Assembly (NCBI GenBank): GCA_018402365.1
Contig: JAGYJD010000010.1
Coordinates: 1 to 51,157, forward strand
DNA length: 51,157 bases
Direction: 5' to 3'
Source of the DNA: Candidatus Nanopelagicales bacterium
GTDB taxonomy: Bacteria; Actinomycetota; Actinomycetes; S36-B12; UBA5976
Both the position numbers and the translations under genes were made by a program. The notes beneath the pieces were generated by a model that did not search any database, was not told the DNA's origin, and worked only from the letters and a program-made list of their open reading frames with translations. Shown here piece after piece: positions 1,390-18,953 of the stretch. Position 1 is the stretch's first letter; each line of letters starts with the position of its first letter.

Positions 1390-2838
1390 ATGCCAAAAAA
1401 GCTTTTACAGGCAGTAGCCATAGGGCTAGCCTTATTAATCCCCGCTTCAAATTCATTTGCGGCCACATTGCCGATGAATTCTCAAGTTGATGCGGCCCGA
1501 GTTGAATTAGCCCAAACCAAAGAAGAATTAAATCAAGCTGAAGATGCGCTAGAGGCGGCCCGAGCAGAATTAGAAAAAGCTCGAACCGAAGATCGCACGG
1601 TGAATCGCGAGCTGAGTCAAGCGCAAGCTGCTCGTGAGGCGATTGGTGAGGACATCAAGGTCTTAGTCGAAGTATTGGAGTCCACTCAAAAGCAAATTGG
1701 AGATTTAGTGCGGGCGACCCACATTGATGGGGTGCAACATGAGTTACTGGTACTCGATGCAATATTGGGTTCTTCCGATAGCGGCGAACTAATGTCGATA
1801 CTTATGTCACTAGAAGTGCTTTTTAACAGTTCTTCTCAAATATTTACACAAGTTACCCAAGCCAAACTTGAATTGGATGCCCAAGAAGCGGCCGCACGAG
1901 AGCAAGAAGAAATAATTTCTGAGCGTAAAGCTCGTACTGCTCAATTGGTAGCTGAAATGGCTAAAGCAGAAGGAAAAGCTAAAGCAGAGACATCACGTAT
2001 CGAAAAATTAGTAGTCCAGCAAGAGGCCACAATTAAAAAATTAGTAATTGCTGGTTTACCTAAACCTAAACCCATTGGTGGTGATTTTGGTGCAAGGGTG
2101 GGTCCAAATGATCGCATCTTAGGTACCGATATTTCGTTGTGGCAACACCCAGGAAACGCACCAATAGATTTCGTAAAAATGTATAACGCGGGGATGCGCT
2201 ACATTTTTATTAAAGGAAGCTCTGGCGGGGATGCAGCACATCAAAGGGCTATGTATTGGTCGGGCTTAGATTTTCCGAAAGCTAGAGAAGCTGGTCTTCT
2301 GACTGGGATTTATCACGCAGCGCTAATTTCGTCTGATGCCAATGTTGAAACTGGATTTCAGCAAGGTGTTGCACAAGCAAATCGCGCGGTAGATCACCTA
2401 AATACTCTGGGTGGAATGAAGCCAGGAGTGTTGCCGATCGTTTTAGATATCGAACCCTTTTCGCGGCCCGCAAACATCGGAGCAAGCGTGGTTTCAAGTT
2501 TTTCAGTTGGATTTGTGCAACAGGTTGAAGCAAGAACTGGCAGAAAGCCAATCATTTATTCAAACTTAAATTTTATTCAACTGTATCTGCGAGACTCTCG
2601 CTTAGCGGCTTACCCGCTATGGATTGCAAATTATTCGCAAGTCACTAACCCAGCAACTACAGTTACTCGTGGCTGCACTCGAACAATTTGGAGTATTTCA
2701 GATTGCGAGAAGGCTTGGACTTTTTGGCAATACACAGATCGAGGTGATGGTAGAACCTACGGCATCGCTAGCGGCTTTTTAGACATGAATGTCTATGCGT
2801 TTACCGCTGATCGTCTGCTTCAAATGGCAGGGTATTGA
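1390..2838 (+). CDS. Secreted GH25 muramidase with N-terminal coiled coil
   Basis: A 482-residue protein with a clear signal peptide (MPKKLLQAVAIGLALLIPAS, cleavage near FAA at residue 25). A long charged heptad-like region (about residues 28-215, rich in E, A, K, Q) predicts a coiled coil like that of RipA/PcsB-type wall hydrolases. The C-terminal part (about 240-482) is a glycoside hydrolase family 25 domain: GTDISLWQ opens it, the catalytic D-x-E lies in IVLDIEPF (near residues 352-355), and FWQYTD is near the end. GH25 enzymes cleave the MurNAc-beta-1,4-GlcNAc bond of peptidoglycan. A coiled coil joined to GH25, rather than NlpC/P60, suggests a controlled autolysin acting in growth or division; that role is inferred. 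Confidence 0.87.
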   Translation: MPKKLLQAVAIGLALLIPASNSFAATLPMNSQVDAARVELAQTKEELNQAEDALEAARAELEKARTEDRTVNRELSQAQAAREAIGEDIKVLVEVLESTQKQIGDLVRATHIDGVQHELLVLDAILGSSDSGELMSILMSLEVLFNSSSQIFTQVTQAKLELDAQEAAAREQEEIISERKARTAQLVAEMAKAEGKAKAETSRIEKLVVQQEATIKKLVIAGLPKPKPIGGDFGARVGPNDRILGTDISLWQHPGNAPIDFVKMYNAGMRYIFIKGSSGGDAAHQRAMYWSGLDFPKAREAGLLTGIYHAALISSDANVETGFQQGVAQANRAVDHLNTLGGMKPGVLPIVLDIEPFSRPANIGASVVSSFSVGFVQQVEARTGRKPIIYSNLNFIQLYLRDSRLAAYPLWIANYSQVTNPATTVTRGCTRTIWSISDCEKAWTFWQYTDRGDGRTYGIASGFLDMNVYAFTADRLLQMAGY

Positions 2839-3521
2839 AAGCGACTTCTTGCGTTTTCTAAATGAATCACCATAGCCGTTCTGGCTTCATCGGCGCTGGC
2901 CTTCTTTATAGCTTCGACAATCGCCAAATGCTCACTCATGGTCTCATTAAAATTAACCGGTACATCTCTTATGAAGTGAAGCCGATAAAGGTGCAAGAAG
3001 CAATGAGTCGATCGGTAAGCCTTGGTCAAGAGGGCATTATCTGAAAAATCAAAAATCATTGCGTGAAATCTTTCATCATGCTCCGCTAAAGATTCAAATG
3101 CATCTAGGCCAGATTTGTTGCCCACTTCGTTTCCTCGCTCTAGCTCCTCGAGAAGCAGATTTACTTGATCCTCTTTAGCAATTCTTGCTGTGAGGTGAGC
3201 TGCAAAAGGTTCTACTAATTCTCTGAAACTAAATAACTCTTGCGCCTCTTTGTTGGTTAAGAGTTCAGATGCCTTAAAACCCTTTAACGGCTCTTTACTA
3301 ATCAGACCAGTTTCTTCAAGTCGAGCCAAAGCCTCACGAATTGGGGTTTGAGAAACATTGAGGTCTCGTGAAAGTGAATCAATATTCATTCTTTCACCCG
3401 GACTTATCTCACGGGTCATAATTTTTTTTCTGATAATTAAAAAAATATCATCGGATAAATTGAAACGAGTCCCAGTGGGGCGCTTGGGGAAGATCGATTC
3501 TTCAGTTTTCATAAATATCAT
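2820..3521 (-). CDS. GntR-family transcriptional regulator, FCD (FadR) subfamily
   Basis: A 233-residue protein with an N-terminal winged helix-turn-helix (about residues 25-90; SLSRDLNVSQTPIREALARL is the GntR recognition region). The all-helical FCD ligand domain follows (about 95-225), with metal-site-type histidines (EHDERFHAMIF, later EHLAIVEAI). FCD regulators usually sense sugar acids or other carboxylates and repress neighbouring catabolic genes, so control of the adjacent fuconate/pentonate genes is likely. Translation may start at 3521 or at the ATG three codons later (3512). It lies downstream of the SDR gene but with a 135-base gap containing a 16-base palindrome. Its 3' end overlaps the convergent GH25 gene by 19 bases. 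Confidence 0.86.
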   Translation of the reverse strand: MIFMKTEESIFPKRPTGTRFNLSDDIFLIIRKKIMTREISPGERMNIDSLSRDLNVSQTPIREALARLEETGLISKEPLKGFKASELLTNKEAQELFSFRELVEPFAAHLTARIAKEDQVNLLLEELERGNEVGNKSGLDAFESLAEHDERFHAMIFDFSDNALLTKAYRSTHCFLHLYRLHFIRDVPVNFNETMSEHLAIVEAIKKASADEARTAMVIHLENARSRFQYPAI

Positions 3522-3656: not shown

Positions 3657-4403
3657 TTACTTAGGCAAATAAAGATTTCCTAAACCACCATCTACCGAGA
3701 GCAGGGTGCCGGTGGTTGAAGCTGACTTTGGGTCAGCCAAATACAAAATTGCATGAGCAACTTCTTCTGGTGAAACTAACCGTCCGATAGGTTGACGGGC
3801 TTCTAATGCGGCACGTTCTTTTTGTGGATCGTTAGCTTGTGCAAGTAATCTTTGCACCCAAGGGGTGTCGGCGGTACCAGGATTTACCGAGTTAACGCGG
3901 ATGCCTTCTTTTACAAAATCAGCTGCCATAGCAAGAGTTAAAGTTTGAATTGCACCTTTTGCTGCTGAGTAAACAGCTCGCTTTGGAATTCCAACAGGAG
4001 CAGCGACTGATCCAGTATTTACTATTGCCTTATTTTGAGATTTTCTTATGAGCGGAAGGAATTTTTTACTTACTCTGGCAGTGCCAAACACGCAAACGTT
4101 AAAAACCCTTTGCCAATCTTCATCAGTAGCATCTTCAATTGTTCCTATTGCACCAATGCCAGCGTTATTAATTAAAATATCGACTCGGTCTACTTGACTA
4201 GCCACCGTATCAAAAGCAGCATCTACCGAGACTTGATTGGTGATGTCGCATTCCACGTAAGTGGCAATGGAGTTTAATTCACCAGGGGTTAAGTCAAAGC
4301 CAAAAACTTTTGCACCACCCTCGGTTAATTGCTTAACACAAGAAAAGCCAATACCGCTAGCTGCGCCGGTAACGATTGCTATTTGATCTTTGAAATCAGC
4401 CAT
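3657..4403 (-). CDS. SDR-family oxidoreductase, probable 2-keto-3-deoxy-L-fuconate dehydrogenase
   Basis: A 248-residue classical short-chain dehydrogenase. It has the TGAASGIG nucleotide motif at residues 12-19, the NNAG motif, a serine in NTGSVAAP and the YSAAK catalytic pair. Its ATG shares one base with the stop codon of the L-fuconate dehydratase gene (TAATG), so the two are translationally coupled. In the oxidative L-fucose pathway the SDR oxidises 2-keto-3-deoxy-L-fuconate to 2,4-diketo-3-deoxy-L-fuconate, and this placement makes that the best call. SDR substrate specificity cannot be read from sequence alone, so the family is certain and the substrate is inferred from context. Confidence 0.82.
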   Translation of the reverse strand: MADFKDQIAIVTGAASGIGFSCVKQLTEGGAKVFGFDLTPGELNSIATYVECDITNQVSVDAAFDTVASQVDRVDILINNAGIGAIGTIEDATDEDWQRVFNVCVFGTARVSKKFLPLIRKSQNKAIVNTGSVAAPVGIPKRAVYSAAKGAIQTLTLAMAADFVKEGIRVNSVNPGTADTPWVQRLLAQANDPQKERAALEARQPIGRLVSPEEVAHAILYLADPKSASTTGTLLSVDGGLGNLYLPK

Positions 4404-5698
4404 TATTTACTCCAAGCCGAGCCATCTGGGTAACTGTATTGCTTAATGCTCTCAATCTTAATTTCAGCACCAGCTCCAGGCTCCAACGGCGCTTGGTAAT
4501 GCGCACCCTTAAGAATGGTTGGGATAACAAAGTGTTCGTGCAGGTGGTCAACAAACTCAACTACCCGCGCTTCATGATGTCCACTCACTGCTACCGCATC
4601 AAACATTGCTAAATGAGACACCATCTCGCATAAGCCAACTCCACCTGCATGAGGACAAACCGGGATGCCGAATTTAGCCGCCATCAAAATCATTGCAATG
4701 TTTTCGTTTACTCCGGCCACTCGAGTGGCGTCTATTTGCATAAAAGAAAAAGCCTTAGCTTGCAAAAATTGTTTAAACATAATGCGGTTATGCACGTGTT
4801 CGCCGGTGGCAACACGAATTGGAGCAATTGCGCGAGCAATAGTGGCGTGACCCAAGATGTCATCTGGGCTAGTGGGCTCTTCAACCCAATGTAAATTGAC
4901 ATCGCCTAAGGCTTTGATCCACTCAATGGCTTCGCTTACATCCCAAACTTGGTTTGCATCTACCGCCAACTTAATATCTGGTCCGATAGTTTCACGGACT
5001 AATTTAAGACGATGAATGTCGTTTTCTAAAGAATGCCCAACTTTCATTTTGATTAATGTAAATCCTTCAGCAACTGCTTCTTTTGCTAAACGAACCATGG
5101 TTTCATCGCTATAGCCCAACCAACCTGGGGTAGTGGTGTAGGCGGGCAAGCCCTTTTCAATCAATATTTTTTTATTAGCATTCTTTTGATCTTCAGCGTT
5201 CTTTAACATTTCTAAAGCTTCATCAGGGGTTAAGGCATCTGTGATATGTCTAAAATCAACCAAGTCAACGATTTGCTCAGGCGTCATATCTGCAAGTTGT
5301 TGCCAAAGAGGCTTTTTATTGATCTTGCAAACCAAATCCCAAACCGCATTAATAACACCGCCAGCTGCCATGTGCGGCACGCCTTTTTCTGGCCCCAACC
5401 AACGGATTTGAGAATCTCTTACTAAATCGCGACCGATGTTACCTAAGCTGTTTTCTAGTTCGCTCAGCTCTAAGCCCACGACAGTTTCGGCTAATTGCGC
5501 AATAGACGCGCATTGTAGATCGTTACCGCGACCGATTGTGAAAACTAAACTGTGGCCTTCAAGATTTGGTTGATCCGTTTTTAAAATTAAATAAGCCGCC
5601 GAATAATCAGGATCGGGATTCATGGCATCTGAACCATGCTTATCGGATGAAGTTGGAAATCTAACATCGTGAGTTTCGAACCCAACGATTGTTGCCAA
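4403..5698 (-). CDS. fucD: L-fuconate dehydratase (enolase superfamily)
   Basis: A 431-residue enolase-superfamily enzyme, full length for the fuconate dehydratase family. It removes water from L-fuconate to give 2-keto-3-deoxy-L-fuconate. Visible features are the family stretch TPGWLGYSDE, the K-x-K of the active site (IKMKVG), three Mg2+ carboxylates in VDANQVWD, VEEPTSPDD and ATGEHVHN, and the general-acid histidine in CPHAGGVG. The start is TTG at 5698, supported by GGAGA eight bases upstream. It leads the minus-strand fucD-SDR pair and is divergent from the aldose dehydrogenase gene. The neighbouring FAH hydrolase and lactate oxidase complete the pathway. Confidence 0.92.
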   Translation of the reverse strand: MATIVGFETHDVRFPTSSDKHGSDAMNPDPDYSAAYLILKTDQPNLEGHSLVFTIGRGNDLQCASIAQLAETVVGLELSELENSLGNIGRDLVRDSQIRWLGPEKGVPHMAAGGVINAVWDLVCKINKKPLWQQLADMTPEQIVDLVDFRHITDALTPDEALEMLKNAEDQKNANKKILIEKGLPAYTTTPGWLGYSDETMVRLAKEAVAEGFTLIKMKVGHSLENDIHRLKLVRETIGPDIKLAVDANQVWDVSEAIEWIKALGDVNLHWVEEPTSPDDILGHATIARAIAPIRVATGEHVHNRIMFKQFLQAKAFSFMQIDATRVAGVNENIAMILMAAKFGIPVCPHAGGVGLCEMVSHLAMFDAVAVSGHHEARVVEFVDHLHEHFVIPTILKGAHYQAPLEPGAGAEIKIESIKQYSYPDGSAWSK

Positions 5699-5810
5699 AA
5701 GAATCTCCTGTTAATGCACATTTCAGGCTGGTAAGTTTTAAAAGCCTATAGGAACAAGTTCAGGGTAATTGATTGCTGGGTAGGTTATCGCTATCGATTA
5801 AGGAGCCCCC

Positions 5811-6788
5811 ATGTTGCAGCATCACCAACTGGTGAGTTTTGGTCGTGCTGGGTTGAAAATTAGCCAGGTAGGCCTAGGAACAGCGCCGTTGGGGGGAATG
5901 TTTAGTTCCGTAAAAGAGGCTACTTCTGATGAACTGATTAAGACCGCAATCGAAATGGGTGTTAATTATTTTGATACTTCACCTTTTTATGGTCACACAA
6001 AATCTGAAAAAAGATTAGGTAGAGGATTAGCTTTTTCTGAAGCGAGAAAGCTTGCGATTATTTCAACTAAGGTAGGGCGAGTTTTTGTACCAGGCGTGCA
6101 CCAAGGGCCGACAATATTTAGAGATCTCGAACCTTTTGTTCCGGTATTTGATTATTCAGCTGGGGGAGTACGAAAATCTTTTGAAGAGAGCTTAGAAAGA
6201 TTGGGCGTTGACCATGTTGATATTTTATTGATTCATGATCCTGAAAATCATATGGATCAAGCAATTAATAAAGCATATCCCGAATTAGACAAAATGCGAT
6301 CCGAAGGATTAGTCAAATCAATTGGTGTTGGTATCAACTTCTCAAATTTGGCAACCAGATTCGTGGAAGAAACTGATATAGATATTGTCTTAATCGCAGG
6401 ACGATTCACTTTGCTGGATCAAAGCGCACTGAAAGATTTATTGCCTCAAGCGCAAAAACGAAATGTTTCAGTGGTAGCAGCGGGGGTATTTAACTCAGGA
6501 GTTTTAGTAAACCCGACAACTGAAGCCACTTATGACTATCAGCAGGCGTCAGCAGAAATCATTAAAAAAACCAAAGCGATCCATCAAGCGATTAAGCCGT
6601 ATTCAGTGCCAGTCTCTGCGGTGGGATTACAGTTTCCGCTTCGCCACCCTTCAGTAAAGGCAATTTTGACCGGGGCTCGCACCGGAGCCGAGTTGAAATC
6701 TAACTTAAAAGATTTTGATTTAGAGTTACCAAGTGAACTCTGGAGTGATTTAGAAAGCAAAGAATTAATCCAACCCATCAGTATTTAA
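5811..6788 (+). CDS. Aldo/keto reductase, probable L-fucose (D-threo-aldose) 1-dehydrogenase
   Basis: A 325-residue TIM-barrel aldo/keto reductase with the catalytic Asp in FDTSPFYG, the Tyr in the same motif, a Lys in ISTKVGR and a His in LIHDPENH. The layout matches D-threo-aldose 1-dehydrogenases, which oxidise L-fucose and also D-arabinose to the 1,5- or 1,4-lactone with NAD(P)+. A strong AAGGAG lies a few bases before the ATG. It starts a plus-strand run that includes the FAH protein and the 2-hydroxyacid dehydrogenase. Because such enzymes accept both L-fucose and D-arabinose, this one could feed both branches of the cluster. No lactonase gene is recognisable in the window. Confidence 0.83.
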
Positions 6789-6802
6789 CCCGAGAGGAAG
6801 CA

Positions 6803-7651
6803 ATGGCGTTAGTAAGCGGTAAAGATAAAAACGGAGTTTTTCACTTAGGGGTAAAGACGGAGAAGGGTGTTCGGCCAGTCATCGTTAGTAGTTGGAAGCA
6901 ACTTTTACAGATGCCACTTGAGCAAGCCAAAAATTTGATTGAAAATACCCAAGGTGACGAGGTAGAGCTAGTAGAAGTTTTACCGCCAGTTGATTTAGAT
7001 AGTGAAATTTGGGCAGCGGGAGTTACATATTTACGATCACGCGACGCCCGCACCGAAGAAAGTGGTGTGCCAGATGTATATACCAGAGTTTATGAAGCAG
7101 ATCGTCCTGAGATTTTTTTTAAGGCAATAGGCAGCAAAGTGGTATGTGAAAACGATTGGATAGGGATTCGTTACGACTCACAAATGAGTGTGCCTGAGCC
7201 AGAGATAGCGATTTTGGTAAACGCACATCAAGAAATTTTGGGATTAACTATTTGCAATGATGTGACCTCCAGAACCATAGAAGGCGAAAATCCACTGTAT
7301 TTGCCGCAAGCAAAAATGTATGAACATTCTTGTAGCTTGCTTTCGTCAGTAACTCCGATTTGGGAAATTGCAGACTTACCAAACATAGAAATAAGTGCCG
7401 AGATTTTGCGTGATAAAGAAGTCGTATGGCAAGCCACTACTTCACTTGCGCAATTAAAACGCCCCTTTGAAGTTTTGGTTGATTACTTATTTCGTTGCTA
7501 TCGATTTGAAAATGGGGTGATTTTTTCAACCGGCACCGGTATAGTTCCACCGATGGATATTTCTTTAGTCGAAGGTGACGCAGTCAAGATTGTGGCGAGT
7601 GAAATTGGAGCTTTAGCTAATCCAGTAAAAACTGTGCAGAAAGGAAACTAA
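6803..7651 (+). CDS. FAH-family protein, probable 2-keto-3-deoxy-arabinonate/xylonate dehydratase (KdaD-like)
   Basis: A 282-residue fumarylacetoacetate hydrolase-fold protein. [12 protein letters not shown] followed by [18 protein letters not shown] is the pattern of KdaD-type dehydratases, and [10 protein letters not shown] plus the later ND/E residues form the metal site. Such enzymes convert 2-keto-3-deoxy-pentonate to 2-oxoglutarate semialdehyde. The semialdehyde dehydrogenase at 10033-11481 and the sugar-acid dehydratase at 12396-14132 supply the steps on either side, which supports this over a generic FAH function. GAGAGGAAG precedes the ATG. The gene follows the aldo/keto reductase by 14 bases and is in the same transcript. 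Confidence 0.75.
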
Positions 7652-7652
7652 C

Positions 7653-8555
7653 TTGACGAAGCATGTGGTTTGGACTCAGTGGGAAGACTTAAAGGGCCCT
7701 GAAGGTTTTGAGATGCTCAATCCAAAAAATGCGCCACTGGATTCTGAGAAAGTTAATGAGATAACTTTTTATGTTCCTACCTACATGGGAGGTAGGGGTG
7801 CGCTTTTGCCTATCTTGGAAATGCCTAATCTAAAACATTTGCAATTACCTAATGCCGGATTTGATGATGCCATTGAATTTTTAAAACCAGGGGTAACGCT
7901 TTGCAATGCCCGCGGAGTTCATGATATGTCAACTGCTGAATTAGCTCTGGGTTTAACTATCTCTAGCTTGCGAGGATTTTCTCATTTTTTCAAAATGCAA
8001 CAGCAATCCTTTTGGGACCACAAGAGAATGCATTCGCTGTCGGGCAAAAAAGTTGGTTTAGTGGGCTATGGCTCAATCGGTAAAAAGTTTGCTCAAATGG
8101 TGGAGCCTTTCGAAGTTGAACTGACGGCCTTTAATCGCTCTGGTAGTGAAGGAGCTAAAAAGATAAGTGAATTGGATTCTCACTTGCCAGAATTCGATGT
8201 CATCGTTTTAATTTTGCCGGCAAACAATGAATCAGTAAAAATGTTTGACCAACGCCGGTTGAGTTTGATGAAAGATGGTGCGTTGTTAGTAAATGTGGCA
8301 CGAGGGGTAATCATCGATACTGAAGCTTTAGTTAAAGAGCTTGATGAAAAAAGAATCTTTGCCGCATTAGATGTAACCGATCCCGAGCCCTTGCCAGCAT
8401 CTCATGCGCTTTGGAAGTGCGAGAACGCGTTCATCGTTCCTCATGTGGGCGGCAATTCCACCGCTTTTGAGCCACGAATACGAAAACTAGTAAAGAGTCA
8501 GCTTGAGCTTTTGGCGCAAGGCAAAGAGATGGAAAATATAGTCGCAACTGGTTAG
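7653..8555 (+). CDS. D-isomer-specific 2-hydroxyacid dehydrogenase, NAD-binding
   Basis: A 300-residue protein of the phosphoglycerate/formate dehydrogenase superfamily. GLVGYGSIGKKF is the Rossmann glycine motif, and the catalytic triad is visible as Arg in NVARGVIID, Glu in TDPEPLP and His in VPHVGGNS. It starts at TTG 7653, one base after the FAH stop codon, so it is translationally coupled. Family function is reduction of a 2-oxo acid to the D-2-hydroxy acid, or the reverse. Its substrate here is unclear. A side reaction removing a 2-keto or glyoxylate-type intermediate of the sugar-acid pathway is possible, but the sequence does not decide it. Confidence 0.8.
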   Translation: MTKHVVWTQWEDLKGPEGFEMLNPKNAPLDSEKVNEITFYVPTYMGGRGALLPILEMPNLKHLQLPNAGFDDAIEFLKPGVTLCNARGVHDMSTAELALGLTISSLRGFSHFFKMQQQSFWDHKRMHSLSGKKVGLVGYGSIGKKFAQMVEPFEVELTAFNRSGSEGAKKISELDSHLPEFDVIVLILPANNESVKMFDQRRLSLMKDGALLVNVARGVIIDTEALVKELDEKRIFAALDVTDPEPLPASHALWKCENAFIVPHVGGNSTAFEPRIRKLVKSQLELLAQGKEMENIVATG

Positions 8556-8699
8556 AGGGCCCTATAACTTTCGGTTGGTTAGTTTTGGTGTCTAGAGACC
8601 GGACTGAGTGAGCGCGAAAAGGGCAATTGGGCAAGAATACGACAGGATATTTACAAACATGCATTTCAAAGCTAATTGAGGATTGGATTCGCAAATTTA

Positions 8700-9923
8700 A
8701 TGAGTATGAAGCGGCAGTTTCCGAGATGGAAGAGCATCAAACCCTTGTTGGGATGGAGCTTCTCTTCGTTATTTGAAAAAAAAGATCGAAAACTAGAAAA
8801 CTGCTTCACAGTCGATGATTTGAAGAGCTTAGCTAAAAAGCGAGTACCGAAGGCAGTATTTGATTATGTAGATGGGGCTGCCCTAGAAGAACTCAGTCTA
8901 ACGCGAGCTAAAGAAACTTTTAGACGAATCGAATTTCGTCCTCATGTTTTAAGAAACGTAAGTCAAATAGATTTAAGTCAAGAAGTCTTGGGTAAAAAAA
9001 CAGCAATGCCAATCATCTTTGCTCCTACCGGTTATTCACGAATGATGCACTACCTGGGTGAGCCGGCAGTAGCGCAGGCCGCTTTAGAAAATGACTTGAT
9101 TTATTCACTCTCAACCATGGGCACCACCTCCACCGAAGAATTGGCCAACGCAGTGCCTGAGGTAAGACGTTGGTTTCAACTTTATTTATGGAACGACCGT
9201 GAACAAAGTAAAAACTTTATTGAAAATGCAAAGCGTGATGGGTTTGAAGCTTTAATGCTTACAGTTGACACCCCGATCAGTGGCCAGAGAATTAAAGACA
9301 ATAGAAATGGTTTGACGGTGCCACCAAAAATTAAAACCAAAACCTTTTTTGATATGGCTACCAAGCCAAAATGGTGGGGAAATTTGTTAACAACCCCTCC
9401 TTTAGAATTCGCAACCTTTAGGGGCTATAACGCTCCCTTATTTGAACTAAGTAAAAAAATATTTGATCCCAGCGTGACAATGAACGATATTAAATGGCTC
9501 AAAGATACTTGGGGAGGTCCGCTAATTGTTAAGGGTGTTCAGCGTGTGGACGACGCGAAAGAATTAGTTAAATATGGGGTTGATGCAATAGTAATTTCGA
9601 ATCATGGCGGCAGGCAGATGGATCGAGCCACCGTGCCTTTAGAAACTTTGCCAGAAATGGTTAAAGCAGTTGGTAAGAAAATGGAAGTTTATATTGACGG
9701 CGGAGTTACTAGCGCTAGCGATGTTTTAGCTGCAATTGGATTTGGCGCAAAAGGAGTTCTATTGGGCCGCTCGTATCTTTATGGCCTGATGGCCGGTGGG
9801 CAAAATGGAGTGCAGAAAATGATTGATATCTTTAAACTCGAGATGGAAACTTCAATGAAGCTCTTAGGAGTGAAGAATTTGAGTGAAATTACACCTGACC
9901 TAGTTTCGCTACGTCCCTATTGA
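8700..9923 (+). CDS. lldD: FMN-dependent L-lactate dehydrogenase / alpha-hydroxy-acid oxidase
   Basis: About 408 residues of the FMN-dependent alpha-hydroxy-acid oxidising family. FDYVDGAA, APTGYSRMMH, the catalytic His in VISNHGGRQMD and the FMN phosphate region (IDGGVTSASDVLAAIGFGAK) are all present. In this cluster it most likely oxidises the L-lactate produced when 2,4-diketo-3-deoxy-L-fuconate is split, passing electrons to the respiratory chain. The frame is open from a TTG at 8676, but the ATG at 8700 or 8706 is more plausible, with GAGG about 18 bases upstream of 8700. A 144-base gap separates it from the previous gene, so it may have its own promoter. Glycolate or mandelate oxidase are less likely alternatives. 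Confidence 0.85.
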   Translation: MSMKRQFPRWKSIKPLLGWSFSSLFEKKDRKLENCFTVDDLKSLAKKRVPKAVFDYVDGAALEELSLTRAKETFRRIEFRPHVLRNVSQIDLSQEVLGKKTAMPIIFAPTGYSRMMHYLGEPAVAQAALENDLIYSLSTMGTTSTEELANAVPEVRRWFQLYLWNDREQSKNFIENAKRDGFEALMLTVDTPISGQRIKDNRNGLTVPPKIKTKTFFDMATKPKWWGNLLTTPPLEFATFRGYNAPLFELSKKIFDPSVTMNDIKWLKDTWGGPLIVKGVQRVDDAKELVKYGVDAIVISNHGGRQMDRATVPLETLPEMVKAVGKKMEVYIDGGVTSASDVLAAIGFGAKGVLLGRSYLYGLMAGGQNGVQKMIDIFKLEMETSMKLLGVKNLSEITPDLVSLRPY

Positions 9924-10032
9924 GTCAAATGGCGGCCTCAGCTGCGCTTTCTTTGTGATTACTAAATACACCGATTCTTAAGTTGGTAAGTGAGGCTTGT
10001 AGTCTTTCTCAAATAACTAAAGAAAGATAAAA

Positions 10033-11481
10033 ATGCCAACTCAATCAATTGACCCCAAAACTGGAACCAAGCTAGCTGATCCAATTATTGATTCAGCTGC
10101 CTCAGAGGTAGAAGAGGTTGTTACACGTAGTGCTGCTGCTTTCATCGATTGGTCAGAAGTCGCTGCCAAAGAGCGCGCAAGTGTTTTAGAGCAAATCGCG
10201 ACGGCTTTGGATTCAAATGTTGACGAATTAGCAAAATTAGCTGATCAAGAAACAGCTTTAGGGGTTGCTCGACTAGTTGGGGAAGTAGCGCGAACCACTT
10301 TTCAACTTCGCCTGTTTGCCAGTGAACTCAAAAAGGGTGAATTATTAAAAGAAGATCTTGACGAAAAAATTGAAGGTGCACCACCACAAGGTAGACCACA
10401 ACTCAGGCGCTCTTGGGTTGCCTTGGGGCCGGTCGCAGTTTTTGGTGCGAGCAACTTTCCTTTTGCCTTTGGTGAATTAGGGGGCGATACCGCCAGCGCC
10501 TTAGCCGCAGGTTGCACAGTGGTGGTTAAAGAGCACCCAGCTCATCCTCAACTTGCTCAGCGGGTAATTGAGTTAAGTCAAAATGCAATTGTGGCAGCTG
10601 GGTTTTCAAAAGATATTTTGCTCTCAGTGAGAGGATTTGAATCTGGCAGTACGTTGGTAAAGCACCCATTAATTTCTGCTTGTGGTTTTACCGGCTCACA
10701 AGTTGCGGGTAAGGCATTATTTAATTTGGCAGTAGCGAGAGAAAACCCAATACCTTTTTATGGTGAATTAGGCAGTATAAATCCGGTATTTGTTACCGAA
10801 AACGCTGCAAAAAATAGAGGTAGCGAAATTGCTAGCGGTTTTGTGGGGTCATTCACCTTAGGTGCGGGGCAGTTTTGCACTAAACCATCTCTGATTTTGG
10901 TTCCAGCCGCATCTGATTTTGAAGCGGAAGCTCTTAAAGCCATCGACCCGCTGAGTTTTTCAACACTTTTAACGCCAGAGATTCAAGCTAAATTTTTAAA
11001 GGACGTGGCCTTAGTAAACAGCAAAACGGGTGTCAAAACCTTATTAGCGCCAAAACCCAAAGCAGATGGCTTTGGAGTTTCAATTGGACTTATGAGTGTG
11101 AGCGTTGAGGATTTTTTGGCAAACTTGCATGAAATTTCTCACGAATGCTTTGGCCCGGTGGCCTTGGTAATTAATTATCAAAATGAGGCGCAATTGACCC
11201 GCGTAGCCGCTCAATTAGATGGAGCCTTGGTTACTACTTTTCAGGCAGAAGTTACACAAGATCAAGAATTACTTAAACAACTAGTAAAAATAGCAAAACA
11301 TCGTGCTGGTCGATTGGTATTAAACGGCTGGCCAACTGGGGTGGCAGTTACTCGTGCTCAACACCATGGAGGGCCTTACCCAGCCTCTACCAATGTTTTA
11401 CACACTTCGGTCGGCAGTTATTCAATGATGCGCTATCTCAGACCAATCAGCTATCAGGATTTTCCAAACGAATTAATCTAA
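10033..11481 (+). CDS. 2-oxoglutarate semialdehyde (2,5-dioxovalerate) dehydrogenase
   Basis: A 482-residue aldehyde dehydrogenase. The catalytic cysteine is C282 in GAGQFCTKP and the general base glutamate is E245 in FYGELGSINP. VFGASNFPFAFG and the ELGS/NP pattern match the branch that oxidises 2-oxoglutarate semialdehyde to 2-oxoglutarate. That is the last step of the non-phosphorylating pentose (Weimberg-type) and hexarate pathways. Flanking KdaD-like and IlvD/Edd-like genes supply its substrate. GAAAG lies upstream of the ATG. It converges with the FAH hydrolase gene, whose stop is 3 bases away. Confidence is high for the family and good for the substrate by context. Confidence 0.87.
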   Translation: MPTQSIDPKTGTKLADPIIDSAASEVEEVVTRSAAAFIDWSEVAAKERASVLEQIATALDSNVDELAKLADQETALGVARLVGEVARTTFQLRLFASELKKGELLKEDLDEKIEGAPPQGRPQLRRSWVALGPVAVFGASNFPFAFGELGGDTASALAAGCTVVVKEHPAHPQLAQRVIELSQNAIVAAGFSKDILLSVRGFESGSTLVKHPLISACGFTGSQVAGKALFNLAVARENPIPFYGELGSINPVFVTENAAKNRGSEIASGFVGSFTLGAGQFCTKPSLILVPAASDFEAEALKAIDPLSFSTLLTPEIQAKFLKDVALVNSKTGVKTLLAPKPKADGFGVSIGLMSVSVEDFLANLHEISHECFGPVALVINYQNEAQLTRVAAQLDGALVTTFQAEVTQDQELLKQLVKIAKHRAGRLVLNGWPTGVAVTRAQHHGGPYPASTNVLHTSVGSYSMMRYLRPISYQDFPNELI

Positions 11482-11484
11482 AAC

Positions 11485-12324
11485 TCAGACAGTTCGAGAT
11501 TTAATTGTTCCGATTCCTTCAATAGTTGTTTCAACTTCTTGACCTGGCTTTAAGAACTGAGGTGGCTTCATTCCCATGGCCACTCCGAAGGGTGTACCAG
11601 TATTAATGACATCTCCAGGGAACAATTCCATAAACTGGCTGATGTACCAAACGGTGTGATAGACACCAAAAATCATGTCATCGGTGTTTGAATCTTGCCT
11701 AATTCCGCCATCAACCTTACAAATTAATTGTAACTTTTGCGGGTCTAAATTTGGATCAGTATTTATCCAAGGTCCACATGGATTAAATGTTGGAAACCCT
11801 TTGCCTTTGTCCCATTGACCACCACGTTCAACTTGCCAGTGTCGTTCTGAAACATCTTGGCTAACGGTGTATCCCAAAATAATGTCTTTGGCGTCTGCTT
11901 CACTCTTTAGATAACGAGCTTGCTTACCAATCACAATTGCTAACTCAACTTCGTAGTCAGTTTTTTCTGACCCTGGAGGAATCTCGATATCATCAAAAGG
12001 ACCCACAAAACTATCAGGAGTCTTCATAAAAATAATGGGTTCGGCCGGAACATCCATACCGGTTTCAGCAGCGTGAGCTTTGTAATTCAATCCAACACAA
12101 ATAATTTTGGTGGGACGTGTCAAAGGCGCGGCAACTCGATAATCCGAAACCTTAACGCGAGGCAAAGTATTAAGATCGCTTTTCGCGACTCGATCAAAAC
12201 CGCCAGCTAAAAGTGCATCTCTTGACCAATCGTCAATTAGCGAGTCAACAAAAACGGCTTCGTTTTCGTTTAAGAAAACTACTGGTTTTTCAGAACCAAT
12301 TTTGCCTAAGCGTCCGATTAACAA
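11485..12324 (-). CDS. FAH-family hydrolase, probable 2,4-diketo-3-deoxy-L-fuconate hydrolase
   Basis: A 279-residue fumarylacetoacetate hydrolase-fold protein of the shorter kind used on acylpyruvate-like substrates. It has IICVGLNYKAHAAE, the metal-site DYEVELAIVIG, and NTGTPFGVAMG near the end, all typical of the family. In the oxidative L-fucose pathway this enzyme splits 2,4-diketo-3-deoxy-L-fuconate into pyruvate and L-lactate. The nearby fucD, SDR and lldD genes fit that exactly. It is divergent from the IlvD/Edd gene with a 71-base gap holding both ribosome sites. Annotation as ureidoglycolate lyase is a common automatic call for this family but fits the context poorly. Confidence 0.78.
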   Translation of the reverse strand: MLIGRLGKIGSEKPVVFLNENEAVFVDSLIDDWSRDALLAGGFDRVAKSDLNTLPRVKVSDYRVAAPLTRPTKIICVGLNYKAHAAETGMDVPAEPIIFMKTPDSFVGPFDDIEIPPGSEKTDYEVELAIVIGKQARYLKSEADAKDIILGYTVSQDVSERHWQVERGGQWDKGKGFPTFNPCGPWINTDPNLDPQKLQLICKVDGGIRQDSNTDDMIFGVYHTVWYISQFMELFPGDVINTGTPFGVAMGMKPPQFLKPGQEVETTIEGIGTIKSRTV

Positions 12325-12395
12325 TTGAATTGACTCCTTTTTAGATTATTAAAGGAAGCCTATAAGATTAAGTAAAACTCTCCAAAGGATGCTCT

Positions 12396-14132
12396 ATGTC
12401 AGATACTTCACATCAATCATCAGAACGCAGAAGTCAGGATTGGTTTGGAGGGATGGGCAGAAACGCTTTCATCCACCGCTCATGGATGAGAAATCAAGGT
12501 TTTGCCCCCGACGTGTTTGATGGTCGTCCGGTAATTGGCATTGCAAATACTTGGTCAGAACTAACTCCCTGTAATGCACATTTACGACGGGTTGCTGATT
12601 CGGTTAAACGTGGAGTTTGGGAGATGGGTGGCTTTCCGCTGGAATTTCCGGCAATGAGCTTGGGTGAACCAATGATGCGCCCCACCACCATGTTGTATCG
12701 AAACATGTTGGCAATGGAGACCGAAGAATTAATTAGATCTAACCCACTTGATGGTGTGGTCTTACTTTCAGGTTGTGACAAAACAACTCCTGGTCTTTTA
12801 ATGGGAACAGCTAGCGTTGATTTACCAGCATTAATGATTACGGGTGGGCCCATGTTGAATGGAAAATTTAAAGGCCGCGACATTGGCTCAGGTACCGATA
12901 CCTGGAAGTTCACCGAAGAATACCGAGCCGGCCGGATGAGCGGTGAAGATTTGATTGAAGCTGAAATTTGCATGTCCCGCAGCGCCGGTCACTGTATGAC
13001 GATGGGTACTGCTTCAACTATGGCTTCGATTGCCGAGAGCTTAGGTATGCAAATTTCTGGCACAGCAGCTATTCCAGCAGTTGATGCCCGTAGATACGCT
13101 TTCGCACATCTAGCTGGACGCAGAATCGTAGAAATGGTCGAAGAAAATTTAGTGATGTCAAAAATTGTTACAAAACCAGCAATTAAAAATGCAATTATGG
13201 CAAATGCTGCTTTAGGTGGATCTACCAATGCAATAGTTCACCTTTTGGCGCTAGCCGGAAGGCTTGGAATTGACCTGACGCTACAAGAGTTTGACGACTA
13301 TGCGTCACCAATTCCTTTGCTGGTCAATTTAATGCCTTCAGGAAAATACTTAATGGAGGATTTCTATTACGCCGGGGGAGTTCCGGTAGTTTTGAAAGAG
13401 TTGAGTGATTATTTAGATTTATCAGTGACCACAGTTAGTGGAAAAACCATGGCAGAAGACATTGCTAACGCTGAGTGCTACAACCGTGAAGTTATCGCCA
13501 CCGTTAAAGATCCGATCCAACCAGCAGGCAACAGCACCGTGGTGCTTAAAGGTTCATTGGCACCCAATGGTGCAGTGCTCAAAGTTTCAGCAGCAAGTGA
13601 AGAATTGCTTAACCATCGCGGACAAGCTTTGGTCTTTGATAGTAACGAGGAGTACATCGCAGTCTCAGACGATCTTGATTTGCCGGTAACCAAAGATACG
13701 GTTTTGATCGTGCGTAATTCCGGCCCTAAGGGATATCCAGGGTTTCCAGAAGTTGGAAATATGCCACTACCGACCAAGTTACTTAAGCAAGGCATTCTCG
13801 ACATGGTTCGAGTGTCGGATGCCCGAATGAGTGGCACTGGGTTTGGCACCTGCATCTTGCACGTCTCACCCGAATCTGCAGCTGGGGGTCCTTTGGGAGT
13901 AATTCAAACTGGAGATTGGGTTGTGCTTGATGTGAGAAACCGTCGTTTAGATATCGAAATTAGCGAAGAAGAGTTGGCTGCCAGAATGGCCTCTTACACT
14001 CCACAACCTGCGAATGTTTCGCGCGGCTGGGCAAAAATTTATGTGGAACACGTGAATGGTGCTGATCGCGGGGCAGATTTGGATTTCTTAATTGGATCTA
14101 GCGGATCTGATGTACCAAGACACTCGCACTAG
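12396..14132 (+). CDS. IlvD/Edd-family sugar-acid dehydratase (arabonate/xylonate type)
   Basis: A 578-residue Fe-S dehydratase. Three cluster cysteines are visible: C59 in NTWSELTPCNAH, C127 in LSGCDKTTPG and C200 in GHCMTMGTAST. The first-segment stretch RSWMRNQGFAPDVFDGRP and LMPSGKYLMEDFYYAGG are marks of the pentonate/hexonate dehydratase branch rather than of true IlvD. The reaction removes water from an aldonate such as arabonate or xylonate to give 2-keto-3-deoxy-pentonate, the substrate of the KdaD-like protein. Length is normal for the family. Which pentonate is preferred cannot be read from sequence. It ends 4 bases inside a convergent small membrane protein gene. Confidence 0.86.
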   Translation: MSDTSHQSSERRSQDWFGGMGRNAFIHRSWMRNQGFAPDVFDGRPVIGIANTWSELTPCNAHLRRVADSVKRGVWEMGGFPLEFPAMSLGEPMMRPTTMLYRNMLAMETEELIRSNPLDGVVLLSGCDKTTPGLLMGTASVDLPALMITGGPMLNGKFKGRDIGSGTDTWKFTEEYRAGRMSGEDLIEAEICMSRSAGHCMTMGTASTMASIAESLGMQISGTAAIPAVDARRYAFAHLAGRRIVEMVEENLVMSKIVTKPAIKNAIMANAALGGSTNAIVHLLALAGRLGIDLTLQEFDDYASPIPLLVNLMPSGKYLMEDFYYAGGVPVVLKELSDYLDLSVTTVSGKTMAEDIANAECYNREVIATVKDPIQPAGNSTVVLKGSLAPNGAVLKVSAASEELLNHRGQALVFDSNEEYIAVSDDLDLPVTKDTVLIVRNSGPKGYPGFPEVGNMPLPTKLLKQGILDMVRVSDARMSGTGFGTCILHVSPESAAGGPLGVIQTGDWVVLDVRNRRLDIEISEEELAARMASYTPQPANVSRGWAKIYVEHVNGADRGADLDFLIGSSGSDVPRHSH

Positions 14133-14506: not shown

Positions 14507-16978
14507 ATGAGGCTAGGGAAAGTTGCAAGTGGTGTCGCCCTGGTTTTTATATTTATTTTCACTTTTTCAGTAAGCGCTAGCGCTGACTATCTACCCGATT
14601 CACTCACAATTGATGGGGCGCCAATTTCGAAAGCTGATAAAAATCCGGTAAAGCTAGAGGTAAATTTGTACACTCCAGAGGTATTACCAGCACCGGCAGT
14701 GGTGCTGGCACATGGTTATGGAGGAGATAAGAATTCTTTACGTGCGCAAGCTAACTATTTGCGCGAGGCTGGTTATGTGGTTTTGTCTTATAGCGCGAGA
14801 GGCTTTGGACAAAGCACCGGCAAAATTTCTATGAACTCACCTGAATTTGAAATTGCAGATGCTAAAGCACTAATTGATTTTCTTGCCACTAGGTCAGAAG
14901 TTCTGCTAGATACCAGCGGTGATCCCAGAGTTGGATTGGTGGGTTCTTCGTATGGGGGAGCCTTGAGCTTGATGGTGGCGGGCCTAGACAAAAGAGTTGA
15001 TGCAGTGGTTTCAGATATTGCTTGGAATAATCTTGAAACTGCGTTGTTTCCCCAAAATGCGGTAGGAATTAATCACCCCGGCGTATTCAAGCAATTGTGG
15101 ACCGGCTTGTTTTTCAATGTGGGTTTAACGGGCGCCCTACAACTTCAGGATCGCTGCGGACGGCTTGAGGTAACTTGGTGCGAGATATATGAGAGTGTGG
15201 CTGCAGCTGGCACTTATTCTCAACAACAAGCCCGCTTAATGTTTGAGTCATCTCCTGCTAGCACAAATGAGAAAGTTACCGCACCAACTCTGTTATTGGC
15301 GGGACAGGCAGATTCTTTGTTTCCGTTATCAGAGGCGGATGCAAATTATCAACAAATAAGCACAGCGAATCCACAAACACCACTAAAGATGGTTTGGCAC
15401 AGCGGAGGCCATGATCTAGGTGTGCCAGAGACTGATCGATTGCAGTTATTAACGCAAGAGTGGTTAGATGCACATTTGCGAGAGGGAAACTCTTTTAATG
15501 AAGATTTCGAAGTGACTTTTGCCCAGGCGAGCATTATCGGGACTAATCAACCAACAGAGAGTCAAGCACAAATCGAGAGTGCACCAAAATATCAGGGACT
15601 AAATAATAGAACTTTGACCATTCCGCTAGCACCTGAGGCGCAAACCATTCTTGCGCCTGCCGGGGGAGTTCCAGCAGTAATTTCGGCATTTCCAGGGCTA
15701 GGTGGTTTTGGAGGCTTTCTCAGTCAATTGATTCCCGAGCAAACTGCAATTTTCCAATCGTCAAAACTTGACAAACTTGCGCGAATTATCGGAAGCAGTG
15801 AAGTTAAATTAAGAATTTCTAGTGAAGAAGTGCATCGTGATGTGGTGCTGTTCGCTAGTTTGCAAGTTATTTCAGAATCAGGTGTTAAGTCATTACCTAA
15901 TGGTTTGGTTGCACCAATTCGAATACCTGAAGTTTCTTCAATACCAGTTGAAATTTCTGTGAACCTTCCAGCAATTGCAATAAAGACCCAACCAGGAGAT
16001 TCACTTCAAGTGGTTGTTAGTACTACTGATTTAGCCTATCGTTTGCCATTAAGCGCAGCGCTTTACAAAATTGAATTAGCTAGCGACATTTCATTAGCGA
16101 CCGGAGATTTAGTACTAACAGATCGCGGTCAAACTCTCTGGATTTATGCCTGGTTGGTACTGGGAACAATAATTTTAATAAGTGTAGTTTTGAGAATCTT
16201 TAGGCCTTATTCGGTCTCAAAGAATAGAAGTGATTTAAGTGAAGTGCCAGTGGCAATTGAAAATTTAGTTAAACAATTTAAAAATGGTCCGCTTGCTGTA
16301 AATGATATTTCTTACAAAATTCCTAAAGGGAAAGTCGTTGGATTACTTGGCCCCAATGGCGCTGGAAAGACCACCACGATGCGAATAATTATGGGACTAA
16401 TCAACCCTAGCGCCGGAGCAGTTTATGTTTATGGCGAGAAAGTGCAGCCAGGTGCTGCTGTGCTTTCTCGAGTTGGTTCATTGGTTGAAGGTTCAGGCTT
16501 TTTGCCGCATCTGTCAGGTCGAGAAAATTTAGATTTGTATTGGCGGGCAACTGGAAGGACGACCACCTCAAATCTGGATGAGGTTTTAACGATTGCGGAC
16601 CTGGGTACTGCAATTGACAGAAAAGTACGCACCTACAGCCAAGGGATGCGGCAACGACTAGGAATTGCCCAAGCCATGCTGGGGATGCCAGATCTTTTAA
16701 TGCTGGACGAGCCAACTAATGGACTTGACCCCTCCCAAATAAAAGCGATGAGAGAGGTGTTGCACAGATACGTGGATTCAGGCGGCACCGTAATCGTCTC
16801 TTCCCATTTGTTAAGTGAAGTTGAACAAACTTGTAGTTACGTAATAGTTATGCACCGGGGACAGCTGATCACTGAAGGGGAAGTCTCGCAATTACTTTCA
16901 GGAAAAGGAAACATGCGGTTAGAGGAGTTTTTCTTAGATGTAATTGGTAGCGATCTAACGATTGGAAAATCATCGTGA
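14507..16978 (+). CDS. Secreted alpha/beta hydrolase fused to an ABC transporter ATPase
   Basis: An 823-residue fusion. A signal-like hydrophobic N-terminus (residues 8-24, then SASA) leads into an S15/X-Pro-type alpha/beta hydrolase. It has the HGYGG oxyanion motif, nucleophile serine in GSSYGG near residue 147, and Asp and His in the LLLAGQADSLFP and SGGHDLG segments. A beta-rich linker is followed by one membrane helix (about 543-565). A complete ABC ATPase then follows: Walker A GPNGAGKTTT near 616, signature YSQGMRQRLG, Walker B LLMLDEPTNGLDP and the H-loop SSHLL. The topology puts the hydrolase outside and the ATPase inside. Its stop overlaps the permease start (GTGA), so the two form one transporter unit. 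The cargo is unknown. Confidence 0.87.
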   Translation: MRLGKVASGVALVFIFIFTFSVSASADYLPDSLTIDGAPISKADKNPVKLEVNLYTPEVLPAPAVVLAHGYGGDKNSLRAQANYLREAGYVVLSYSARGFGQSTGKISMNSPEFEIADAKALIDFLATRSEVLLDTSGDPRVGLVGSSYGGALSLMVAGLDKRVDAVVSDIAWNNLETALFPQNAVGINHPGVFKQLWTGLFFNVGLTGALQLQDRCGRLEVTWCEIYESVAAAGTYSQQQARLMFESSPASTNEKVTAPTLLLAGQADSLFPLSEADANYQQISTANPQTPLKMVWHSGGHDLGVPETDRLQLLTQEWLDAHLREGNSFNEDFEVTFAQASIIGTNQPTESQAQIESAPKYQGLNNRTLTIPLAPEAQTILAPAGGVPAVISAFPGLGGFGGFLSQLIPEQTAIFQSSKLDKLARIIGSSEVKLRISSEEVHRDVVLFASLQVISESGVKSLPNGLVAPIRIPEVSSIPVEISVNLPAIAIKTQPGDSLQVVVSTTDLAYRLPLSAALYKIELASDISLATGDLVLTDRGQTLWIYAWLVLGTIILISVVLRIFRPYSVSKNRSDLSEVPVAIENLVKQFKNGPLAVNDISYKIPKGKVVGLLGPNGAGKTTTMRIIMGLINPSAGAVYVYGEKVQPGAAVLSRVGSLVEGSGFLPHLSGRENLDLYWRATGRTTTSNLDEVLTIADLGTAIDRKVRTYSQGMRQRLGIAQAMLGMPDLLMLDEPTNGLDPSQIKAMREVLHRYVDSGGTVIVSSHLLSEVEQTCSYVIVMHRGQLITEGEVSQLLSGKGNMRLEEFFLDVIGSDLTIGKSS

Positions 16979-17829
16979 AATATTTGCCAGAAAAAACACT
17001 GCCCTTTAGTGTTGAGTTTATAAGGCAATTTAGACGACGACGTACTTTAGTGGCATATAGCTTAATGGTCTTATTACCTTTACTGGTGGTTGCTGCAGTA
17101 AAGCTAGGCGGTTCCGCCGATGAAGGTACTGCAGATGGCGGCAACTTTGGCAGCGGAACTTTAAGTTTGATTGGTCTCGCTACTGCAGGAGCTGCAAATT
17201 TTACAGTGGTGATGATTTTTTTTGCTACCGGATTTTTACTAACAATTGTTTTTGCACTTTTTGCTGGCGACACTGTAGCCAGTGAGGCCTCCTGGTCTAG
17301 TTTGCGCTATCTGTTAGCGGCTCCAGTTCCACGAAGAAGATTGCTAGGCATCAAACTGGCAGTAGCAATGACATTAAACTTGTTTGCGCTATTGATTTTA
17401 ATATTGACTTCTTATCTAGTTGGGTTACTTGCATTTGGTTCAAGCCCGCTAGTTAGTCCAATAGGGGGTACATTTACTGGCGGTGAAGCGCTTTTTCGCT
17501 TAGCAATTATTGGTACCTATGTTTTTATAACGTTACTTTTTGTTTCAGCAGTTGCTTTTTATATGAGCGTGCGCACAGACGTCCCGTTGGGGGCTGTAGG
17601 AACTGCGGTTATTTTAGTAATTCTTTTTGCGATTTTAGATGCAATTTCAGCCTTAGGTGATTTGAGAAATTGGCTTCCGGGTCATTATTCGCAAGCTTGG
17701 ACAGATGCGCTTGGCTCACAAATCACTTGGGACAACATGGCAAAAGGGGCCGCGTCTTCAGTGATCCTATTTTTAATACTCATTACCTTTGCGTATCTCA
17801 AATTTGAACGCAAAGATATAATGTCTTAA
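16975..17829 (+). CDS. ABC-2 type transporter permease
   Basis: A 284-residue polytopic membrane protein with about six hydrophobic segments (starting near residues 25, 72, 118, 167, 208 and 255). The tandem-arginine N-terminal region FIRQFRRRRTLVAYSL and the APVPRRRLLGIKLAVA coupling region are typical of ABC-2 exporters. It starts at GTG 16975, overlapping the stop of the hydrolase-ATPase fusion by four bases, so it is translationally coupled and is the membrane partner of that ATPase. Such permeases usually work as dimers to export lipids, peptides or drugs. The substrate cannot be inferred from its own sequence. Confidence 0.85.
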   Translation: MKYLPEKTLPFSVEFIRQFRRRRTLVAYSLMVLLPLLVVAAVKLGGSADEGTADGGNFGSGTLSLIGLATAGAANFTVVMIFFATGFLLTIVFALFAGDTVASEASWSSLRYLLAAPVPRRRLLGIKLAVAMTLNLFALLILILTSYLVGLLAFGSSPLVSPIGGTFTGGEALFRLAIIGTYVFITLLFVSAVAFYMSVRTDVPLGAVGTAVILVILFAILDAISALGDLRNWLPGHYSQAWTDALGSQITWDNMAKGAASSVILFLILITFAYLKFERKDIMS

Positions 17830-17855: not shown

Positions 17856-18524
17856 CTATATTTTGCGAATGACCGCAACCACTTTGCCCATAATTCGAGC
17901 ATCATCACCATTAATTGGTTGATACTCAGGGTTCTCTGGCATCAACCACACATGTCCATCTTTGCGCTTTAAAGTTTTAACTGTGGCTTCATCATCCAAA
18001 AGTGCCGCAACGATGTCGCCGTTATCGGCATCTGGTTGTTTCTTAACGACCACCATGTCCCCATGACAAATGGCAGCGTCAATCATTGAATCACCCACAA
18101 CCTTTAACATAAATATTTCACCGCTTCCGACTAACTCTTTTGGAAGCGCGTAAACAGTTTCGATTGATTCTTGAGCCAAGATTGGCCCACCGGCTGCAAT
18201 TTGCCCAAGCAGAGGCACATAGACCGGGGCGGGGAGTGATTCCAGCTGCTGTGGGTCTATTGAGTCAGGTAGCACCACGTCAATGGCACGAGGGCTTTTT
18301 GGATCTCGTTTTAGAAAGCCCTTCTTCTCTAAAGCCGACAATTGGTGAGATACCGAGCTGGGGCTAGTTAGCCCGCATGCTTCGCCTATTTCACGGATCG
18401 TGGGGGGAAAGCCTCTATCTCTTACGGCCTCTTGAATTACCTCAAGAATTCGCCGTTGGCGGGCTGTTAAACCGTCTGAATCGGGTGCGGAATCTGGAAA
18501 CTGGGTGACGTTGTCTTTGCTCAT
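17856..18524 (-). CDS. lexA: LexA SOS repressor
   Basis: A 222-residue LexA. The winged helix-turn-helix DNA-binding domain covers residues 18-80 ([27 protein letters not shown]). The autocleavage bond is A111-G112 in QIAAGGP, and the catalytic dyad is S146 in GDSMID and K183 in ATVKTLK. RecA filaments trigger self-cleavage and derepress SOS genes. The promoter region between lexA and the divergent LysM gene carries overlapping SOS-box-like palindromes, so it is autoregulated. A perfect box lies at 41825-41840 before the dnaE2/dinB operon. Confidence 0.97.
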
Positions 18525-18542
18525 GGGCTAAACATACCAAAT

Positions 18543-18571
18543 TCGAACAGCTGTTTCAAACACCTGTTCGA
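18543..18571. promoter_or_regulatory. Two overlapping LexA (SOS) box-like sites between lexA and the LysM gene
   Basis: Site 1 (18543-18558) reads TCGAAC-AGCT-GTTTCA and site 2 (18556-18571) reads TCAAAC-ACCT-GTTCGA. They match the actinobacterial consensus TCGAAC-N4-GTTCGA with two and one mismatches and overlap by three bases. Another half site, GTTCGA, lies near 18617. The position, within 50 bases of the lexA start and upstream of the LysM gene, fits shared control of both divergent genes. Confidence 0.8.
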
Positions 18572-18635
18572 ACAGTGTCGAGTTTTGTCAGGGGGGTGTG
18601 TTACATTAGTACAAGTGTTCGAAAGAGAGGCAAAA

Positions 18636-18953
18636 ATGACCACCGCTGCGCTTAGCCCAAATGGCCTTAGATTGACTAGAAAAGGTCGTCTCGCAATCAC
18701 TTTTTCAGCTGCCCTATTGGTGCTAGCTGGAGTGTTCGCTTTGGCACCCAGTGGAGCAGAAGCCTCAAACACCTCAAACTCAGCCGGCGTAATTGAAGTT
18801 ATCGTTTCCCCTGGCGATTCCCTCTGGTCAATTGCAAAGGCTGCTAAACCTGATCAAGATCCGCGAGAAACCATTTATGAGATTAAAGCTATGAACCTTA
18901 TTCAAGGCAGTCAGGTCTTTCCTGGTCAAATAATTCAAATTTCGGCTAACTAA
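18636..18953 (+). CDS. LysM membrane-anchored protein, candidate SOS-induced division inhibitor (YneA/DivS/ChiZ-like position)
   Basis: A 105-residue protein starting at ATG 18636 with GAGAGG about 8 bases upstream; the frame is open further upstream but without a good start. A positively charged N-terminus precedes one hydrophobic anchor (about residues 20-42). A LysM domain follows (about 55-104; IVSPGDSLWSIAKAA, then GQIIQIS), which binds peptidoglycan glycans. Genes of this shape sit divergently from lexA in many Gram-positives (yneA in Bacillus, divS in Corynebacterium, chiZ in Mycobacterium) and delay septation during SOS. That function is inferred from position, architecture and the shared SOS boxes. 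Confidence 0.82.
   Translation: MTTAALSPNGLRLTRKGRLAITFSAALLVLAGVFALAPSGAEASNTSNSAGVIEVIVSPGDSLWSIAKAAKPDQDPRETIYEIKAMNLIQGSQVFPGQIIQISAN

Follow-up and report, generated by a model that had tools for sequence, protein, structure and literature searches.

What is the task of a single polypeptide that carries a secreted serine hydrolase at one end and an ABC ATPase at the other, and whose gene runs directly into that of a permease? The locus raising this question lies in a window of 51,157 nucleotides (the whole stretch of DNA that was analysed) from a Candidatus Nanopelagicales bacterium, and consists of the following features.

14507..16978, plus strand: fusion gene for a secreted S15/CocE-like hydrolase, membrane helix and ABC ATPase; 823 aa, ATG start
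14507..14587, plus strand: signal peptide, aa 1–27, with AxA site (sequence and hydropathy)
14648..15412, plus strand: alpha/beta hydrolase, Peptidase_S15, aa 48–302 (Pfam)
14948..14950, plus strand: predicted nucleophile Ser148 in GSSYGG (aa 146–151), kept in 73/73 relatives; role assigned from the family
15155..15181, plus strand: Cys217 and Cys225, a probable disulfide in the cap region, co-retained
15311..15313, plus strand: putative catalytic Asp269, kept in 73/73 relatives
15410..15412, plus strand: putative catalytic His302, kept in 74/74 relatives
15737..16033, plus strand: PepX_C-like beta domain, aa 411–509 (Pfam, marginal here)
16136..16204, plus strand: single transmembrane helix, aa 544–566 (hydropathy)
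16250..16942, plus strand: ABC ATPase domain, aa 582–812 (motifs; Pfam ABC_tran at aa 598–738)
16975..17829, plus strand: ABC-2 permease, 284 aa, GTG start (ABC2_membrane_2 and ABC2_membrane_4)

Pfam profiles, hydropathy and motifs agree with the original prediction that an 823-residue protein joins a signal-led serine hydrolase (GSSYGG) to one helix and a complete ABC ATPase, and the four-base permease overlap claimed with it is exactly the tetranucleotide GTGA, in which the permease starts at 16975 and the fusion ends at 16978. The domain-architecture search suggested as a check placed Peptidase_S15, PepX_C and ABC_tran above their cut-offs and typed the hydrolase as S15/CocE. The N-terminus is of the cleavable type, with a short basic segment followed by a hydrophobic stretch up to the AxA site (VSASA↓DY). 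The helix has a hydropathy of 2.44 and the corresponding region is hydrophobic in 32/32 relatives, its sequence being poorly conserved (14% identity); Arg566, on the inner side of the helix, is invariant (74/74 relatives), and basic residues come after the helix. Cys217 and Cys225 are retained or lost as a pair, with both present in 71 relatives and neither in 2. Based on the signal peptide, on the basic residues and Arg566 behind the helix and on the paired cysteines, we infer that the N-terminal hydrolase probably lies outside the membrane and the C-terminal ATPase inside.

The outer part scores 78.5 bits with Peptidase_S15, against a gathering score of 23, and a marginal 23.7 bits with PepX_C, against a cut-off of 22.5; both models were matched in 32/32 relatives scanned, PepX_C at E <= 0.001 and at best with 1.1e-16. 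Like the S15/CocE-NonD hydrolases (CocE, PepX, 8yzn), it has an alpha/beta core, the GxSYxG motif, a Ser-Asp-His triad (S148, D269, H302) and a PepX_C-like domain, whereas the membrane helix and ABC ATPase are additions of the fusion; the tallies for Ser148 and Asp269 refer to the 73 ungapped rows within an alignment of 74 proteins. When a profile of 30 relatives was compared with the PDB, the best match of the outer part was a solved 'Lipase', 8yzn (E 2.4e-38), and cocaine esterase matched its C-terminal domain. The fusion does not reach the cut-off of the NCBIfam model CocE_NonD (TIGR00976; 54.5 vs 66.3), which one relative (L119) clears with 113.8, and on these profile scores its hydrolase is assigned to the Pfam S15 family, outside the CocE_NonD subfamily. 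Identity as a Xaa-Pro dipeptidyl-peptidase (PepX) was rejected, the NCBIfam PepX model falling far short at 22 vs 642 bits. The outer enzyme is an active-looking serine hydrolase of the esterase/peptidase type.

The ATPase motifs are complete (Walker A GPNGAGKT, signature YSQGMRQR, Walker B LLMLDEP, H-loop SSH), and among the fused relatives the Walker A lysine is kept in 74/74, the Walker B glutamate in 72/72 and the H-loop histidine in 71/71. Pfam ABC_tran covers aa 598–738 with 101.8 bits, above the curated cut-off. By sequence this half is like the ABCA lipid transporters, NosF and LanF; the nearest NCBIfam models are of the lantibiotic-protection and daunorubicin-resistance (DrrA) types, both well under their curated cut-offs, with TIGR03740 (LanF-type ATPase) at 190 vs 310 bits. 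Its fold match is NosF (Z 18.9, 39% identity over 222 aligned residues). Fold matches from the predicted models were obtained for the ATPase only, the AlphaFold models being poor both for the whole fusion (5-sequence alignment, mean pLDDT 53) and for the outer part (single-sequence, mean pLDDT 36). PADLOC matches of the fusion to mad3, mad8 and AriA were set aside as explained by the ATPase domain alone. The permease, with six hydrophobic segments, exceeds the cut-offs of ABC2_membrane_2 (32.6 vs 27.2 bits) and ABC2_membrane_4 (27.7 vs 27 bits) and weakly resembles lantibiotic permeases (NCBIfam); its only PDB match, NosY, is insignificant (E 0.86). The unit shares a NosF-like ATPase and a six-helix ABC-2 permease with transporters of the NosFY, LanFEG and DrrA type, whose ATPases, unlike the fusion, have no outer enzyme, and is best read as a family of ABC-2 (NosFY/LanFE-like) half-transporters in which the ATPase bears its own surface serine hydrolase.

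To place the fusion among its relatives, 198 genomes of the class, 166 of the order and 396 of the phylum were searched. A match at about E <= 1e-95 was present in 44/198 genomes of the class, the outer part was matched at E <= 1e-30 in 66/166 genomes of the order, and the phylum search returned fused copies beyond the class (L131, L132, L133, L134, L137 and L138). With duplicates taken out, 74 distinct relatives spread over several classes of Actinomycetota, the phylum of Nonomuraea, Tsukamurella and the small-genome Nanopelagicales, have the two halves in one open reading frame, and pairwise identity drops to 36%. The permease adjoins the fusion in all 65 of the 65 loci in which the sequence reaches far enough, in 63 of them no more than 150 bases past the end of the fusion, while in the other two the domain match begins at 170 and 239 bases. 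The expectation that similar fusions exist in other actinobacteria was hence borne out and, as judged from these comparisons, the fusion is real, ancient and conserved across them. The original prediction had also considered that orthologues might encode the halves as separate genes, joined here by an error; no split orthologue was found among the loci read, the same frame recurs in 74 relatives from independent genomes, and the probability of a joining artefact, whether from assembly or frameshift, is negligible.

Of the loci read, all that scored over 440 bits for the outer domain carry the fusion, save one at a contig end; L097, considered as a hydrolase-only relative, was discarded because its gene is cut by the end of its contig. 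Free hydrolases do occur at lower scores (L067, L068, L071–L075, L077, L078, L128, L129, L136, L139–L143), and in the loci read none of them adjoins ABC genes of the fused-ATPase clade. Those sampled in the tree branch apart from the fused proteins, the split being weak (support 0.505). One of them (L136, 8310–11273) carries three CWB2 cell-wall-binding repeats and no ABC part, and another (L141) has an LPATGG-like end. A single clade of the ATPase tree, with support 0.999, contains the fused proteins and also two ABC units devoid of the hydrolase, L130 and L157. The former groups with the fused L060 (support 0.66). In the latter (1563–3386) the ATPase is fused to the permease in a 607-codon frame with the helix retained in front, and because the helix is kept ahead of an ATPase joined to its permease, the outer domain seems to have been lost. 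The simplest reading is a single ancient fusion, from which the hydrolase would rarely have been lost afterwards.

Across 32 neighbourhoods, no third conserved gene was found beside the pair except among close relatives; other shared neighbour clusters, examined as operon partners, were explained by shadow frames or by close relatives. In the window, a sugar-acid catabolic cluster precedes the pair and lexA follows it. The cluster (3657–14132) comprises an SDR, an enolase-superfamily dehydratase, an aldo/keto reductase, two FAH-type hydrolases, 2-hydroxyacid and FMN dehydrogenases, an aldehyde dehydrogenase and an ILVD/EDD dehydratase, and looks like an island for non-phosphorylative catabolism of a sugar acid (e.g. 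from fucose or arabinose). On the other side (17856–18953), lexA stands beside a divergent LysM-type gene. The gene pair is patchy within the family, and four congeners that have neither fusion nor permease keep the lexA/LysM-type pairing, one of which (L150), read in detail, has other genes at the site. Since this pairing is intact without them, the fusion and permease form a self-contained, dispensable unit. In one genus, repeated short secreted chaplin-like proteins are encoded beside the fusion (L117, 12293–14049; L119, 12773–13601), one of which was checked against Pfam and gave no match. Two related loci (L145, 4419–6771; L048, 11745–14094) have genes like glpK and glpF downstream of the pair, and in an unrelated lineage (L108, 11344–13068) a glpD-like gene is oriented divergently from it; glycerol genes beside the pair in two lineages are a weak, post hoc hint of a glycerolipid link, or may be due to chance.

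In E. coli YbbAP-TesA, a periplasmic esterase is bound by an ABC transporter, which is suggested to pull out hydrophobic compounds that the enzyme then hydrolyses; this hand-over of membrane compounds is a proposal still awaiting experimental confirmation there, and the authors' substrates gave little ATP stimulation (PMC12646458). By analogy, our best explanation of the present locus, put forward tentatively and at somewhat less than an even chance, is that the ABC-2 core delivers a membrane compound to the tethered surface hydrolase. Probably two fusion chains and two permeases would make up one machine, in which the ABC-2 core would use ATP to drive an ester, amide or acyl compound of hydrophobic or amphiphilic character out of the membrane or out of its inner leaflet, for cleavage at the outer surface by the tethered serine hydrolases. 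That two active sites, presumably separated by the membrane, are conserved together speaks for coupling or, at the least, for a need of both, and the absence of a conserved third gene suits a general compound better than one dedicated peptide. Neither processing of cargo in the course of export nor sensing of wall or lipid products, the two roles originally put forward, was established, a dedicated cargo being made less likely by that same absence. A lipid or hydrophobic substrate would be compatible with the precedent of YbbAP-TesA, and both the likeness of the ATPase to lipid transporters (ABCA) and the match of the outer part to the 'Lipase' 8yzn favour this explanation, as do the constant adjacency of the permease (65/65 loci) and the one well-supported clade of fused ATPases. 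Against it count the range of S15 relatives, which span peptidases, amidases and esterases, the ABC-2 type of the permease, which lacks a large outer domain like that of YbbP, the poor AlphaFold models, which showed no hydrolase-permease interface, and the presence of L130 and L157 in the same ATPase clade, from which it appears that the ABC part can work without the hydrolase. More doubtful still is the wider proposal of a phylum-wide class of ABC-powered surface hydrolases, independent of YbbAP-TesA and with motor and outer enzyme in one chain, in which the ABC-2 core would pull compounds from the membrane for the ATPase-borne enzyme to cleave.

The same features might instead describe an exporter for detoxification or immunity, in which the ABC-2 pair would expel an antimicrobial or toxic amphiphile in the manner of LanFEG, BcrA or DrrA and the surface hydrolase would inactivate it on exit. 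The lantibiotic-protection and daunorubicin-resistance models that best match the ATPase, together with the weakly lantibiotic-like permease, point in this direction, as does the patchiness of the pair, which is missing beside lexA in four congeners as accessory functions are; however, even the best of the curated cut-offs is missed widely, and the pair comes with no shared regulator or biosynthetic neighbour, so that we consider this reading unlikely. That the transporter is just a surface anchor for the hydrolase, with each activity serving its own unrelated end, is improbable: although some free relatives are surface-held by other means (the CWB2 repeats and the LPATGG-like end), which would fit simple anchoring, the ABC motifs and the permease are conserved along with the triad in 74 relatives, and the sole breaks seen are the two hydrolase losses.

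The covalent connection of ATPase and enzyme through one helix would also allow ATP binding to shift that helix and toggle the outer enzyme without any transport. NosFY, the closest ABC relative of known structure, acts together with a periplasmic partner (as NosDFY), and FtsEX, an ABC complex controlling an outer hydrolase, is reported to govern wall hydrolases in mycobacteria (PMC10694151). The hydrolases of FtsEX are, however, separate proteins recruited by FtsX, the permease here is of the ABC-2 and not the FtsX-like type, and the little-conserved sequence of the helix also speaks against such gating. No S15-type enzyme is known to act as a wall hydrolase, and we hold ATP gating to be quite improbable. 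An exporter-type ATPase and an S15 family that contains dipeptidyl-peptidases would suit a dedicated peptide exported and then processed outside, as by peptidase-containing transporters (PCAT; ComA, LagD, LanT), in which a hydrolase is also fused to an ABC protein; but the peptidase of the latter, a cysteine (C39) domain, sits in the cytosol as part of a complete transporter chain, as opposed to an outer serine enzyme on an ATPase with a separate permease. With no conserved small cargo gene in 32 neighbourhoods and the Xaa-Pro dipeptidyl-peptidase model so far out of reach, we regard peptide processing as very improbable.

Returning to the delivery of a membrane compound to the tethered hydrolase, the locus resembles YbbAP-TesA in that the genes are co-located and an ABC transporter is physically attached to a serine hydrolase outside the cytoplasm (an esterase there). 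Yet YbbAP is a type VII (FtsX/MacB-like) transporter, whereas the permease here belongs to the ABC-2 type (ABC2_membrane families); and TesA is a separate esterase that binds YbbP, whereas the S15/CocE-like enzyme is covalently fused to the ATPase. Set apart by its class of ABC transporter, by the fold of its hydrolase and by the covalent link between them, the system stands outside the YbbAP-TesA family and, if transport and hydrolysis are coupled, would represent a second, covalent way of connecting an ABC motor with an external enzyme. With both activities on one chain, the question of coupling is directly testable with point mutants. The domain families are already known, and any domain search would reveal their combination; a published description of a hydrolase-ABC ATPase fusion was not found in the open-access literature. 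In RefSeq, the Tsukamurella copy is labelled 'alpha/beta fold hydrolase', a name that hides the ATPase half, and stands beside an 'ABC transporter permease'.
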